This document shows, piece after piece, positions 44,754 to 50,723 of a DNA stretch of 64,000 nucleotides. Below the pieces are notes generated by a model. It did no database searches. It was not told the origin of the DNA and saw only the letters and a list, made by a program, of their open reading frames with translations. Every line of letters starts with the position of its first letter. Within the stretch, counting starts at the first letter, position 1. The position numbers and the translations under genes were made by a program. The DNA comes from Bacillota bacterium. GTDB taxonomy: Bacteria > Bacillota > Limnochordia > Limnochordales > Limnochordaceae. The stretch lies in contig PIUA01000020.1 of NCBI GenBank assembly GCA_017577405.1, positions 62,001 to 126,000 of the forward strand, read 5' to 3'.

Positions 44754-44783
44754 TTGCCTGGGACCGGACGCCCGGAGTAGAAT
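44754..44783 (+). promoter_or_regulatory. Promoter of the HTH/aminotransferase-reductase cassette
   Basis: TTGCCT (44754-44759), 18-base spacer, TAGAAT (44778-44783), directly after the lysC terminator and 47 bases before the GTG at 44830. It is the only promoter candidate seen before the three following genes. Confidence 0.65.
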
Positions 44784-44829
44784 GGGGGGCAAGGAGCACA
44801 CTTTTGTGCACAACCCGGAGGTGCATCCC

Positions 44830-45390
44830 GTGACCGACCTGGTCCGCATCGGCGACAAGGTAATCGACCGGGCCCGCCTCCACCGGCTGATCGACCAGGC
44901 CCTCGACCTTCGTGCCGGCGGGGCCTCCCAGCAGGAGGTGGCCGACCGCCTGGGCACCGACCGGACCTTTGTCTCCCGCCTGGAGACCCTGGGCGAGCTC
45001 CGCCGGGGCCGGCGGATCGGGCTGGTGGGCTTCCCCGTGGCCAACAAAGGGGAGCTGGAGGCCCTGGCCGCCGCGGAGGGGCTCGACTGGGTCCTGCTCA
45101 TGACCGATGCGGAACGCTGGGCCTACGTCCGGAACCGCTCCGGGATCGACCTGGTCAACGACATCATGGCCCTCATCTCCCAAGCGCAGGAGCTGGACGC
45201 GGTGATCGTGCTCGGCTCCGACATGCGGGTTCAGCTCTTGGAGGCCGTGCTGGGGCGGAAGGCGGTGGGTATGGTGATCGGTGCCTCGCCCATCCAGGGC
45301 GACCGCCCGGTGGACACCGATCGGCTGCGGGAGCTGATCCGGGCCCTCAAGGCCTCGGAGAACGGGCCAGGGCCGGCGAGGGGGGAGTGA
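44830..45390 (+). CDS. HTH-domain protein, putative regulator of the cassette
   Basis: 186 residues. The N-terminal third contains a helix-turn-helix: GGASQQEVADRLGTDRTFVS, then RLETLGELRRGRR. The rest is an alpha/beta domain (RIGLVGFPVANKGELEALAA, VLLMTDAERWAYV, DAVIVLGSDMRVQLLEAVLG) that I do not recognise and that might bind a small ligand. I choose the GTG at 44830 after GGAGGTG; an ATG at 44782 overlaps the -10. It leads a compact unit of three genes, so local autoregulation is a reasonable inference. Confidence 0.8.
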   Translation: MTDLVRIGDKVIDRARLHRLIDQALDLRAGGASQQEVADRLGTDRTFVSRLETLGELRRGRRIGLVGFPVANKGELEALAAAEGLDWVLLMTDAERWAYVRNRSGIDLVNDIMALISQAQELDAVIVLGSDMRVQLLEAVLGRKAVGMVIGASPIQGDRPVDTDRLRELIRALKASENGPGPARGE

Positions 45391-45392
45391 CG

Positions 45393-46340
45393 ATGAAGCG
45401 GATCGTGAGCGTCAGCCTGGGCTCCTCGGCCCGGAACACCTCGGCCACCGTCCAGATCGAGGGCGAGCCGGTGACCATCGAGCGGATCGGCACCGACGGT
45501 GACCGCCGCAAGGCCATCGAGCTCATCCAAGAGCTGGACGGGAAGGTGGACGCCTTTGGCATGGGCGGCATTGACCTCTACCTGGTAGCCGGCAACCGCC
45601 GCTACGCCATCCGGGAAGCCAAACCCCTCCTGCGGGCGGCCAAGCGCTCGCCCATCGTGGACGGTTCAGGGCTGAAGAACACCCTCGAGCGGCGGGTGGT
45701 GGAAGAGCTGGACCGGCGCGGGATTGTGCCGCTCCGCAAGAGGCGAGTGCTCTTGGTCTCGGGGGTGGACCGCTTCGGTATGGCCGAGGCCCTGCACCAA
45801 GTGGGCAGCGAGACCATCTATGGCGATGTCATCTTCGCCCTGGGCCTGCCCGTGCCCATCCGTCGCCTGCAGGCCCTTCGGGTGCTGGCCTACACCTTGC
45901 TGCCCATCATGACCCAGCTTCCCTTCAAGATGCTCTATCCCACCGGGGAGCAGCAGGATGAGGCCCGTCCCCGCCACGTCCGGTTCTTCCAGTGGGCCGA
46001 CGTCATCGCCGGCGACTTCCACTTTATCCGCCGGTCCATGCCCGATGACCTGTCAGGCAAGGTGATCCTGACCAACACCGTCACCCCCCAGAACGTGGAG
46101 GAGCTCCGGGCCCGGGGCGTGCGGCTGCTGGTGACCACCACGCCCAACATCCAGGGCCGCTCCTTCGGAACCAACGTGATGGAGGCCCTGATCGTCGCCC
46201 TGGCGGGGAAGCGTTGGGAGGAGATGACCCCCGAAGACTACCATCACTGGTTGGACCGCCTGGGCTTCACCCCCCGGGTGGAGTACCTGAACGGCACCCC
46301 CGAGTCGGAGAGCGGGCAGCCCATCGCCTCGGTCAACTAG
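45393..46340 (+). CDS. Unassigned conserved-looking protein of the cassette
   Basis: 315 residues from the ATG at 45393 (GGGGGAG upstream). Visible blocks: KRIVSVSLGSSARNTSATVQ, IERIGTDGDRRKAIELIQEL, GKVDAFGMGGIDLYLVAGNR, RVLLVSGVDRFGMAEALHQV and VTPQNVEELRARGVRLLVTT. From memory, similar proteins are sometimes labelled quinate 5-dehydrogenase in databases, but I see no typical dinucleotide loop or quinate dehydrogenase motif, so I leave the function open. Linkage to the aminotransferase-reductase fusion suggests a shared pathway. Confidence 0.75.
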   Translation: MKRIVSVSLGSSARNTSATVQIEGEPVTIERIGTDGDRRKAIELIQELDGKVDAFGMGGIDLYLVAGNRRYAIREAKPLLRAAKRSPIVDGSGLKNTLERRVVEELDRRGIVPLRKRRVLLVSGVDRFGMAEALHQVGSETIYGDVIFALGLPVPIRRLQALRVLAYTLLPIMTQLPFKMLYPTGEQQDEARPRHVRFFQWADVIAGDFHFIRRSMPDDLSGKVILTNTVTPQNVEELRARGVRLLVTTTPNIQGRSFGTNVMEALIVALAGKRWEEMTPEDYHHWLDRLGFTPRVEYLNGTPESESGQPIASVN

Positions 46341-46370: not shown

Positions 46371-48893
46371 ATGGATCGCTTTGGCACGTACGTCAACCCT
46401 GTCATTGGCCAGCTCCTCCAGCGCCTGGAGATGGACAAGCGCTTCGTCCGGGGTGAAGGGTGCTTCCTCTGGGACGAAGAGGGCCGGCGCTACGTGGACT
46501 TCCTGGCCGCTTACGGCGCCCTGCCCTTCGGCTTCAACCCGCCCGAAGTCTGGGAGGCGATCCGCTCGGTGGAGCGGGCCCAGGCGCCCAGCTTTGCCCA
46601 GCCCTCCTCCCTGGACGCGGCGGGCGAGCTGGCCCAGCGGTTGATCGAGCTGGCCCCGCCCGGCTTCCGGACCGTGACCTTCACCAACAGCGGCACCGAG
46701 GCCATCCAGGCGGCCATTCGGGCGTGCCGGCTGGCGACGGGCCGTGCCCGGGTGCTCACCTGCCAGGGCGGCTACCACGGCCGGGCCCCCCTGGGGGCAC
46801 CCCCTGGCTGGAGCCCGGCCGGGTCGGCCCAGGAGACCAATCAGGTGCCCTATGGGGATCTGGAGGCGCTGGAGGCGGCGCTCCGGGCCAACCCCGAGGC
46901 CTACGCCTGCTTTGTGGTGGAGCCCATCCAGGGAGAGGGAGGCATCGTCGAGCCGCCGGCGGGCTACCTGGCCGAGGCCCAGCGCCTCTGCCGGGAACAT
47001 GGGGTCCTCATGGTGGTGGATGAGATCCAGACGGGTCTGGGCCGGACGGGTCGCCTGTTCGCCTGTGAGGAGGCGGGCATCACGCCCGATGTCCTCACCC
47101 TGGCCAAGGCCCTGGGTGGGGGTCTCATGCCCATCGGGGCCGTCTTGCTGACAGAGGCGGCCGCCTGCCCCGCCTACTTCGCCACCCAAGCGTCCACCTT
47201 CGCCGGGGGCACCTTGGCCTGCCGGGCCGGCCTGGCCACCCTGGACCTCCTCACCCGGAACGATCAGGAGCTGGTCCGGGAGGTGGCCCGGAAAGGGGCC
47301 CGCCTGAAGGCGCAGCTGGAGGCGCTCCGGGAGCGCTACCCCCGGGCGCTGGCAGCCGTCCGGGGCCGGGGCTTCATGCTGGGCCTGGAGCTGACCCCCA
47401 CCCGGGCCAGCCATCCCCAGAGCCTGGTGGGCATCCTGGGCGAGCAGGGGCTTCTCGCCTCCCTGGTGGCCAGCTACCTGTTGAATGTGGAAGGGATCCG
47501 GGTGGCCACCACCCTCAATCGGGCCAACGTCCTCCGGGTCGAGCCGCCCCTGACCCTCTCGGAGGAGCTCAGCGATCAGCTGGTGGCCGCCTTGGATCGG
47601 GTCCTCAGCCTGGTGGACCGGGGCGATACGGCGGGCCTGGTCGCCCACCTGGCGGGGGTCGAGCTGCCTGAGGGGCCCCGGCCGGTGGTCCAGGCGGTGC
47701 CGGCCGCGCCCCGGGTCCAGCCCAGCGGCTCGCCCGAGGAAGGCCGCTTCGCCTTCCTGGTCCACCCGCTCACCCTGATCAACTACCGGGATTACGATCC
47801 CAGCTTCGCCGTCTTCGACGAGGAGGCCCTGGGCCGCTTGGCCCGCCGCTGGAGCGACATCATGGAGCCCATGGTAGTAGGGGAGACCCGGATCGAGTCG
47901 GCCACAGGGGCGGTCGCCTATGGGGAGTTCGTCGCCGTTCCCCGGACGACCGAGGAGCTCTTGACCATGCCCCGGGAGCAGGCCCAGGCGGAGGTCCGCC
48001 GGGCGGTGGAGCTGGCCCGGGACCGGGGGGCCCGGATCGTGGGCCTGGGCGCCTACACCGCGGTGGTCACCATGGGCGGGCTGGGGTTGACCGACCTGGG
48101 CGTGGCCATCACCACCGGCAACAGCTACACCGTCATCTCCGCCCAGGAGGCCATCGGGCTGGCGGCCGAACGACTGGGGGTGCCCCTGAACCAGGCCGCG
48201 GTGGCGGTGGTGGGGGCGACGGGCTCCATCGGGCGGGCCCTGGCCCTTCTTCTGGCCGCGGAGGCGAAGCAGCTGATTCTCGTGGGCAACCAGGCCCACC
48301 CCCAGGCGAGCCTCCGGCGCCTGAAGCGGGTGGCGGAGGCGGCGGTCGAAGCCGGCCACCAGCCCGAGTTCGAGCTGACCGTCGATGTGGACGCGGCCCT
48401 CGCCGCCGCCGACGTGGTGGTAACGGCCACCTCCAGCACTCTGGAGCTGGTCCGGCCCGAGAACGTCAAGGCAGGGGCCATCGTCTGCGACATGTCCCGG
48501 CCGCCTAACGTGGCCGCCCGGATGCAGGCCGAGCGGCCTGATGTGCTCGTTATCGACGGCGGGGTGGTGGAAGTTCCGGGCCGGCCCTACATGGGCTTCA
48601 ACTTCGGCTTCGAGCGGGGACTCGCCTATGCGTGCATGTCAGAGACCATGATGCTCGCCCTGGAGCAGCATTACGAGCACACCAGCCTGGGCAGCGAGTT
48701 GCCCCTGGCCACCCTGGAGATGATGCGGAACCTGGCCGCGAAGCACGGCTTCCGCCTGGCCTGGCTCCGGAGCTTCGACCGGCCCTTGAGCGAGGCCGAC
48801 TGGCAGCGGGTCCAGAAAGCCCGGGCCGAAGCCCTGGGCCTTCACCCCCGGGCGGCAGGCGGCGGGGGGCCCCGCCAGGGTGCACGAGGGTAA
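46371..48893 (+). CDS. Fusion of class III aminotransferase and acyl-ACP reductase-like domain
   Basis: An 840-residue two-domain protein. Residues 1 to about 425 are a class III PLP aminotransferase: TFTNSGTEAIQAAIRACRLA, GGYHGR, VDEIQTGLGRTG and the PLP lysine Lys246 in LAKALGGG. After a proline-rich linker, residues about 465-820 resemble cyanobacterial acyl-ACP reductase: RIESATGAVAYGEF, GLGAYTAVV, ITTGNSYTV, VAVVGATGSIGRALALLLA, IDGGVVEVPG and Cys755 in AYACMSETMML, aligning by eye with that family's active cysteine. I infer thioester reduction followed by amination of the aldehyde; the true substrates are unknown. Confidence 0.85.
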   Translation: MDRFGTYVNPVIGQLLQRLEMDKRFVRGEGCFLWDEEGRRYVDFLAAYGALPFGFNPPEVWEAIRSVERAQAPSFAQPSSLDAAGELAQRLIELAPPGFRTVTFTNSGTEAIQAAIRACRLATGRARVLTCQGGYHGRAPLGAPPGWSPAGSAQETNQVPYGDLEALEAALRANPEAYACFVVEPIQGEGGIVEPPAGYLAEAQRLCREHGVLMVVDEIQTGLGRTGRLFACEEAGITPDVLTLAKALGGGLMPIGAVLLTEAAACPAYFATQASTFAGGTLACRAGLATLDLLTRNDQELVREVARKGARLKAQLEALRERYPRALAAVRGRGFMLGLELTPTRASHPQSLVGILGEQGLLASLVASYLLNVEGIRVATTLNRANVLRVEPPLTLSEELSDQLVAALDRVLSLVDRGDTAGLVAHLAGVELPEGPRPVVQAVPAAPRVQPSGSPEEGRFAFLVHPLTLINYRDYDPSFAVFDEEALGRLARRWSDIMEPMVVGETRIESATGAVAYGEFVAVPRTTEELLTMPREQAQAEVRRAVELARDRGARIVGLGAYTAVVTMGGLGLTDLGVAITTGNSYTVISAQEAIGLAAERLGVPLNQAAVAVVGATGSIGRALALLLAAEAKQLILVGNQAHPQASLRRLKRVAEAAVEAGHQPEFELTVDVDAALAAADVVVTATSSTLELVRPENVKAGAIVCDMSRPPNVAARMQAERPDVLVIDGGVVEVPGRPYMGFNFGFERGLAYACMSETMMLALEQHYEHTSLGSELPLATLEMMRNLAAKHGFRLAWLRSFDRPLSEADWQRVQKARAEALGLHPRAAGGGGPRQGARG

Positions 48894-48964: not shown

Positions 48965-49065
48965 TCCAAGGCTCAAGCCCCGTGGCGCGGCCCACGCCTC
49001 TGGGATGCCACCCCTTCGGGCGCCCGGGCCTGCCTCGGGCCGTCTCGGTCTTTGGTCGAGATCGA

Positions 49066-49107: not shown

Positions 49108-49185
49108 TGGTCGGGCTGGCCGGATTTGAACCGGCGACCTCCACACCCCCAGTGTGGCGCGCTAACCAAGCTGCGCTACAGCCCG
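49108..49185 (-). tRNA. tRNA-Pro (anticodon GGG)
   Basis: Minus-strand cloverleaf with acceptor CGGGCTG/CAGCCCG, D-arm TAGCGCAGCTTGGTTAGCGC, anticodon stem CCACA/TGTGG with loop CTGGGGG (anticodon GGG) and T-arm CCGGTTCAAATCCGG. CCA is encoded at 49110-49108. It has its own promoter and terminator and reads against the flanking protein genes. Confidence 0.96.
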
Positions 49186-49224: not shown

Positions 49225-49304
49225 CCGCCAGTTCGCAGGAGCGGGAATGGAGGTGTCGAAAGGACGGCTCCGAAAGCCCTTTTCCACCCAAAGGGGGCGG
49301 AGCC

Positions 49305-50723
49305 ATGGAGCGGATCACCCTTGCCCGCGCGCTGGCCATGGGCCGGGAGGAGGCCCGAGCCCTCGATCGTGACTCCCCCAAGGGCCGCCTCCGGAGCACC
49401 CCGCCGGGCAGGGACCGGCTCTTCATCCGGGCCGAGGGCTGCCGCCTCTGGGACGACCAGGGTCAGGTCTACCTCGACTTCGCCGGCCAGGGGGGCACCC
49501 TCAGCCTGGGCCACAACCCGGCCCCGGTCCTGGAAGCCGTCCGGCTCGTGGCCGAGCGGCCCAACCTGCTCCAGGTGGGCCTGGATCCGGTGATGTCCGC
49601 CCTCATGCAGAACCTCGCCGCCCTCGCGCCGGAGGCGCTGGCCCGCCCCCTCCTGACGGCCAGTGGGCGGGAGGCGATAAGGGCGGCCGTGGGTCTGGCC
49701 CGGCGGGCGACAGGCCGGCCCCGGATTCTCGTCTGCGAGGGCGCCTCGTCAGACCTCTCCCTGGACTCGTGGGCCGCCGAGCCACCACCGGCGGAGACTC
49801 CCACGGCCGCGGCCCCCGTGGCTGAGACCGCCGCCACCGCAACCTCCGCCCCGCCGGGGACCGGGCTGGCGGCGGTACCCTACGGGGATCTGGCCGCTCT
49901 GGAGGAGGCCTTGGCGGGCCGGGAGGTGGCCGCCTTCGTCGTCGAACCCATCCAGGTCGAGGCCGGGGTGCTGCTCCCGCCTCCCGGGTACCTCCAGCGG
50001 GCCAGGACCCTCTGCCGCGAACGCGGAACGCTGTTCATCGTGGATGAGCGTCGGACAGGCCTGGGCCGGACCGGCACCCTCTTTGCCTGCCAGGCCGAGG
50101 GGATCGAACCGGACATCCTCTGCCTGGGCCCCAGCCTGGGCGGCGGTGTGGAACCTCTGGGGGCCGTGCTCACCACCGAGGCCCTCTGGCGGCAAGCCAC
50201 CGCTCGCCGGGAGGGACGCTGGATCGAGACCCTCCTGCCCGAGGTGGGTACCAGGGCCGCGGCGGCCGGGTTGGCTACCTTGGAGAGCCTCCTGGACGAG
50301 GGCTTGCCCGCCCGGGCGGCGGAGCTGGGCGCCTACCTGCTGGCCCGGCTGGAAAGCCTTCAGGCTGAACACCACACCGTGGTCAAGGCGGTGCGGGGGC
50401 GAGGGTTTCTTGTGGGGCTGGAGTTCGAAGACGTCCGGAGCTGGGCGACCCGTCTTCCCTTCGGCGGCCGTGGGGCCTTCGGGCCCGGGGGCCTCGCCAC
50501 CTGGGTGGCGGGGGAGCTCCTCCAGCGCCACCGGATGCTCACGCACCCTGTCCAGCCCCAGGTGCTCCTCTTGGCACCACCCCTCACCATCGGCCGGAAC
50601 GAGATTGACCAGGTGGTGGACGCTTTGGGCCAGGTGCTGGCAGGCGCCCGGCCCGGGTGGAGTCTCGCCGTTCGGTCAGCGCTCACCGGGCTCCGGCACC
50701 TCCGGGGAGGCTCGCCAAGCTGA
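49305..50723 (+). CDS. Class III aminotransferase homologue lacking the PLP lysine (probable pseudoenzyme)
   Basis: 472 residues clearly homologous to class III aminotransferases and to the fusion protein upstream: VYLDFAGQGGTLSLGHNPAP, FVVEPIQVEAGVLLPPPGYL, VDERRTGLGRTGTLFACQ and PDILCLGPSLGGGVEPLGAV. The PLP lysine of the LAKALGGG motif is replaced by Pro276 (LGPSLGGG). SGTEA has become SGREA, and the Gly-Tyr-His block is replaced by a serine-rich stretch and an alanine/threonine-rich insert. The frame is intact with normal composition, so it is not a decaying gene by that measure. A structural or regulatory partner of the fusion enzyme is inference. The ATG at 49305 follows GGGGGCGGAG. Confidence 0.85.
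   Translation: MERITLARALAMGREEARALDRDSPKGRLRSTPPGRDRLFIRAEGCRLWDDQGQVYLDFAGQGGTLSLGHNPAPVLEAVRLVAERPNLLQVGLDPVMSALMQNLAALAPEALARPLLTASGREAIRAAVGLARRATGRPRILVCEGASSDLSLDSWAAEPPPAETPTAAAPVAETAATATSAPPGTGLAAVPYGDLAALEEALAGREVAAFVVEPIQVEAGVLLPPPGYLQRARTLCRERGTLFIVDERRTGLGRTGTLFACQAEGIEPDILCLGPSLGGGVEPLGAVLTTEALWRQATARREGRWIETLLPEVGTRAAAAGLATLESLLDEGLPARAAELGAYLLARLESLQAEHHTVVKAVRGRGFLVGLEFEDVRSWATRLPFGGRGAFGPGGLATWVAGELLQRHRMLTHPVQPQVLLLAPPLTIGRNEIDQVVDALGQVLAGARPGWSLAVRSALTGLRHLRGGSPS

Follow-up and report, generated by a model that had tools for sequence, protein, structure and literature searches.

Genes at the locus

The window analysed here, a 64,000-nucleotide stretch from a Limnochordaceae bacterium (Bacillota), contains a gene for a class III aminotransferase of altered active site and, upstream of it, a gene in which an intact aminotransferase domain is fused to a reductase-like domain, with a tRNA gene on the opposite strand between the two (Table 1). 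All 472 codons of the altered gene are open, from the ATG at 49305 to the stop at 50723, as the preliminary description had stated, and neither a broken frame nor an internal stop, by which a pseudogene would be recognised, was found in it. A longer mechanical open reading frame starts at 49005; as it crosses the tRNA-Pro gene, and as homology to the copy in the one other genome sampled from this genus (hereafter the genus-mate, a single contig of 3,817,036 bases) starts at the Met of 49305, the latter is the likely start codon.

Table 1. Coordinates of the genes, signals and altered motifs, as positions of the window.
Feature	Position	Strand	Basis or remark
Fusion gene, TamH-like: class III aminotransferase (Lys246), then acyl-ACP-reductase-like domain (GxxGxxG, Cys755)	46371..48893	+	domain and motif matches
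tRNA-Pro(GGG) between fusion and separate aminotransferase; also in genus-mate	49108..49185	-	supports positional orthology
Shine-Dalgarno-like motif, AAAGGGGG	49290..49297	+	7 bases 5' of ATG 49305
Separate class III aminotransferase, probably inactive, 472 aa	49305..50723	+	open frame, Pfam match, orthologue alignment
SGREA, residues 120-124 (active relatives SGAEA or SGTEA); Arg122 at PLP-phosphate position	49662..49676	+	alignment
Residues 146-187: Ala/Pro-rich stretch, 13 residues longer, in place of FHGKTxGALSVTGRxxYxxPFxPL block; disorder predicted at 165-184	49740..49865	+	alignment, structure model
DERRT, residues 247-251 (relatives DE(I/V)QT); Asp kept, cofactor-touching Val/Ile and Gln replaced by Arg249 and Arg250	50043..50057	+	alignment
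Pro276 codon CCC at PLP Schiff-base lysine position (genus-mate AAG)	50130..50132	+	alignment, codon comparison
ETLLPEVG, residues 308-315, replacing HTSTFGGN loop that reaches partner subunit's PLP phosphate	50226..50249	+	alignment, YgjG
PVQPQVLLLAP, residues 415-425 (relatives TLNNPNVxRLEP); conserved substrate-switch Arg replaced by Leu422	50547..50579	+	alignment

The 472-residue product matches Pfam Aminotran_3 over residues 41-445 (E 5.8e-60), and its best PDB sequence matches, which share the class III fold, are the aminotransferase domain of PigE (4ppm) and YgjG, the putrescine aminotransferase of E. coli (4uox). An AlphaFold2 model built from 57 aligned relatives has a mean pLDDT of 85.3 and a pTM of 0.87, falling below 50 at residues 165-184 and to 60 in the block 301-310, and a Foldseek search with it again placed YgjG and PigE among the top fold matches. 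By descent, therefore, this is a class III aminotransferase, matched in sequence and fold across the domain. The alignment behind the model consists mostly of active homologues, so that the predicted fold is not independent evidence; it indicates that the class III fold can accommodate this sequence, which is distinct from actual folding.

The fusion keeps every motif examined in its aminotransferase domain (Lys246, SGTEA, GGYHG, DEIQTG, STFAGG, LRVEPPL). Its reductase domain carries the nucleotide-binding motif GATGSIG at 615 and a cysteine, Cys755, that aligns with the catalytic cysteine of acyl-ACP reductases, and it matches both these enzymes (6jzq, E 4.5e-21) and the N-terminal half of PigE. 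These motifs agree with the active fusion enzyme that had been described close by. In domain order and catalytic motifs it resembles TamH of Pseudoalteromonas tunicata, a transaminase-thioester reductase (PMC9594044), a likeness that concerns the fusion and not the separate copy; the domain order of PigE (PMC8341465) is the reverse. Two genes lie upstream of the fusion, at 45387-46340 and 44782-45390, and their homologues adjoin the fusion in the genus-mate (L116) and in L128. Neither has an NCBIfam match, and the former also has no Pfam match and a single weak PDB match, to a pentatricopeptide repeat protein.

State of the active site

The motif LGPSLGGG begins at residue 274 of the separate copy, which places Pro276 at the position of the Schiff-base lysine, and three base changes separate its codon from that of the genus-mate. 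Replacement of the PLP lysine by proline, SGREA in place of SGTEA and loss of the cofactor-stacking block, all three noted in the preliminary description, are seen in the alignment as well. When the PLP and substrate contacts given in the YgjG structure paper (PMC4244111) are carried over by alignment, seven of the ten are changed: Lys300, Phe180, Val273, Gln274, Thr332* (of the other subunit), Arg426 and Thr151 of YgjG correspond to Pro276, Ser148, Arg249, Arg250, Leu311, Leu422 and Arg122, respectively. At the Thr151 position most active relatives have Ala, so that the change here is from Ala to Arg. The equivalents of Gly150, Asp271 and Glu243 are kept, the latter two as Asp247 and Glu219.

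Only two lysines, Lys26 and Lys361, occur in the whole protein. Both are distant from the PLP site as judged by sequence, and a nearby lysine forming the Schiff base, the circumstance that had been named as refuting a dead enzyme, is accordingly unlikely. With the lysine and the phosphate-binding, ring-stacking and Arg-switch residues gone, established PLP chemistry indicates that the protein is most likely without transaminase activity. That it still catalyses something, via a different lysine or by a route that needs no Schiff base, would be consistent with retention of Asp247 and Glu219; given the position of the two lysines and the residues lost, we regard this as very improbable.

An assembly or sequencing artefact could be imagined for a genome that is 86.4% complete in 52 contigs. 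However, the changes are many, separate and in frame throughout the gene, the frame is unbroken, and flanking synteny is conserved within a 204 kb contig. Three changes are needed from AAG to CCC, and 43 of the 122 residues that never vary among the 20 active orthologues differ here; this excludes chance and a single base error, and an artefact of any kind is hardly credible.

Orthologues, subunit contacts and the fusion

The orthologue clade was assembled by genome search (39-53% identity), with one member added by contig search. All 20 other members, the syntenic genus-mate copy included, keep the PLP lysine and have SGAEA/SGAES or SGTEA as well as DE(I/V)QTG. Within this clade the altered copy groups with that of the genus-mate (SH-aLRT 99), to which it is 53% identical and which adjoins the same fusion gene and tRNA-Pro. 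Synteny between the two genomes is unbroken from homoserine dehydrogenase through the fusion, tRNA-Pro and the aminotransferase to acylphosphatase and EF-G, and the neighbouring proteins are 72-82% identical, against 53% for the aminotransferase. Judging from sequence and gene order, the gene at 49305-50723 has as its positional orthologue an active class III transaminase that resembles PigE or putrescine aminotransferase. Among the sampled genomes, of which two represent this genus, loss of the catalytic site is private to the source genome.

The preliminary description had proposed a retained pseudoenzyme and had itself named a lysine in the orthologues as evidence to the contrary, and a lysine is what all 20 have. 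Its picture of a catalytically dead homologue with a full frame, beside a fusion with intact motifs, stands; that of a conserved pseudo-subunit does not. Of 73 genomes of the class surveyed, only the two that belong to this genus have both a clade member and the fusion, and many have the fusion without a clade member. The TamH-like fusion is widespread in the class, being present in families such as f2, f3, f8 and f13, and outside this genus no surveyed genome has it alongside the separate aminotransferase. Families f4, f5 and f9 and one f12 genome have a separate aminotransferase and a separate reductase frame, mostly of 365-505 residues, and most relatives with the separate aminotransferase carry the acyl-ACP-reductase-like gene at another locus. 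An SDR-family oxidoreductase gene lies directly upstream of the separate aminotransferase in the three f4 genomes (L117 10724-11503, L118 8072-8851, L119 8383-9195). At G006:C1:505876-508385 the aminotransferase and reductase halves are in separate frames of 603 and 555 residues, and the fusion there may be split or frameshifted.

These results bear on whether the aminotransferase domain of the fusion depends on the altered copy as an obligate partner in a heterodimer, in the way that LCB2 of serine palmitoyltransferase is paired with LCB1. Like LCB1, it is a lysine-less homologue of an active PLP enzyme (PMC3794620); the two genes are adjacent and of common ancestry, aminotransferase domains of this family dimerise, dimerisation being treated as necessary to define the active site of TamH (PMC9594044), and some interface motifs are kept. 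LCB1, however, is an established heterodimer subunit, whereas here the lysine loss is not conserved among orthologues and is found in one genome, the genus-mate copy is intact, and the fusion does without a clade member in many related genomes. Furthermore, Thr332 of one YgjG subunit holds the PLP phosphate bound in the other (PMC4244111); with Leu311 in a rewritten loop at the equivalent place, the altered copy would not offer that contact to the fusion's site in a mixed dimer. As for the dimer-type segments that had been described as kept, LGHN, EPIQ and DExxTGxGRTG are present, but the HTSTFGGN loop is lost, and so is a portion of the N-terminal arm (Asn26, Leu29 and Gly34, as numbered in the genus-mate). 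The heterodimer that the preliminary description had put forward is thus disfavoured by the destruction of the loop on which the partner's phosphate site would rely, and we consider it improbable.

Probable relaxation of constraint and the fate of the separate copy

The losses are unevenly spread. Four loops, all active-site or subunit-contact loops and the STFGGN loop among them, are wiped out: these blocks hold 37 of the invariant residues, 30 of them changed, whereas of the other 85 only 13 are changed and 72 kept, a division that is descriptive, as the blocks were delimited after the alignment had been seen. Invariant residues were lost more often near the site (30/61) than far from it (13/61; Fisher p 0.001), and outside the blocks the figures are 8/33 and 5/52. 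Much of the near/far contrast comes from adjacent residues lost in blocks, each of them perhaps in one event, and site-selective loss with the scaffold spared is therefore suggestive only.

The protein branch leading to the altered copy is 1.05 long, 7.3 times that of the genus-mate (0.145). The neighbouring fusion gives 0.249 vs 0.151, a ratio of 1.7, which indicates that the lineage is generally about 1.7 times faster. Within 8 residues of the contact positions the branches are 1.45 and 0.136 for the altered and sister copies, and outside this zone 0.87 and 0.154, still a 5.7-fold difference against the 1.7-fold background. In an active pair 22% of the sites in the active-site zone differ vs 46% elsewhere, whereas for the altered copy the figures are 50% and 46%, so that the active site is no longer better conserved than the rest. 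The composition of the altered copy has shifted towards Gly/Ala/Arg/Pro (43.6% vs 36.9%), although in seven control genes this content is level or differs in the opposite direction. Synonymous rates are saturated between the two genomes and dN/dS was therefore left unused.

Neutral decay was simulated from the genus-mate sequence at 70% equilibrium GC with assumed indel rates. The probability of no stop was 0.12 at 21% and 0.03 at 35% amino-acid change, and 3-16 frameshifts were expected under those rates. The frame is open after an estimated 100-245 neutral-equivalent base changes, for which the probability of neither stop nor frameshift is roughly 0.03 or less. Because the frame is intact and 72 of the 85 invariant residues outside the blocks survive, uniform, fully neutral decay is unlikely, and a partial release of constraint fits better. 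Hidden compensated frameshifts were considered as a cause of the lost motifs, and none was convincing: the other frames of the divergent blocks match the orthologue no better than the frame in use, and one 16-residue stretch in frame +1 of the C-terminal block exceeds its own shuffles yet scores below the in-frame alignment.

A protein retained in a new, non-catalytic role, as a homodimeric binder, a scaffold or a regulator of the reductase/transaminase step, would account for the intact frame, the Shine-Dalgarno-like motif and the invariant residues kept outside the four loops, its scaffold still being under selection; the destroyed blocks, moreover, are mostly loops or coil in the model. On the other hand, such a copy is seen in one genome, its scaffold evolves faster than expected by the measure given above, and the model, built from active homologues, adds no independent evidence on the fold. 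We hold this reading to be possible yet unlikely. The narrower proposition of a newly arisen aminotransferase pseudoenzyme with such a role, alongside a transaminase-reductase fusion and with an intact orthologue in a sister species, seems more doubtful still; a limited literature search on aminotransferase pseudoenzymes found no direct precedent.

We favour, with a probability of about 0.58, the view that this is a redundant transaminase gene, still in frame and freed from the need to catalyse, rather than an established regulatory partner. The fusion in this genus probably performs both steps, thioester to aldehyde and aldehyde to terminal amine. This redundancy would have freed the separate copy from catalytic constraint in the source species, where it has lost the cofactor lysine, the residues for phosphate binding, ring stacking and substrate switching, and the four loops, with the frame and most of the scaffold persisting. 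The protein is most likely made and approximately folded, and devoid of transaminase activity. This reading supposes that the fusion takes over the reaction of the separate copy, as the class-wide pattern of fused vs separate genes suggests, that the altered protein is expressed, and that its old function has presumably not been replaced by an essential new one. The long branch and the vanished protection of the active site agree with release, but the scaffold is largely kept, and the intact frame and small loss outside the loops suggest that selection still acts. Moreover, the genus-mate keeps an intact separate copy together with the fusion, so that redundancy alone does not force loss, and two genomes are a small sample of the genus.

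In summary, the two genomes provide a before-and-after pair at one locus, in which the catalytic motifs are intact in the genus-mate and lost in the source genome while the frame persists. Within the class, a probable acyl-to-amine pathway comes in two forms, with transaminase and reductase either separate or fused. A functional altered copy would count as a young pseudoenzyme, and one without function as a case of the ordinary loss of a redundant gene.
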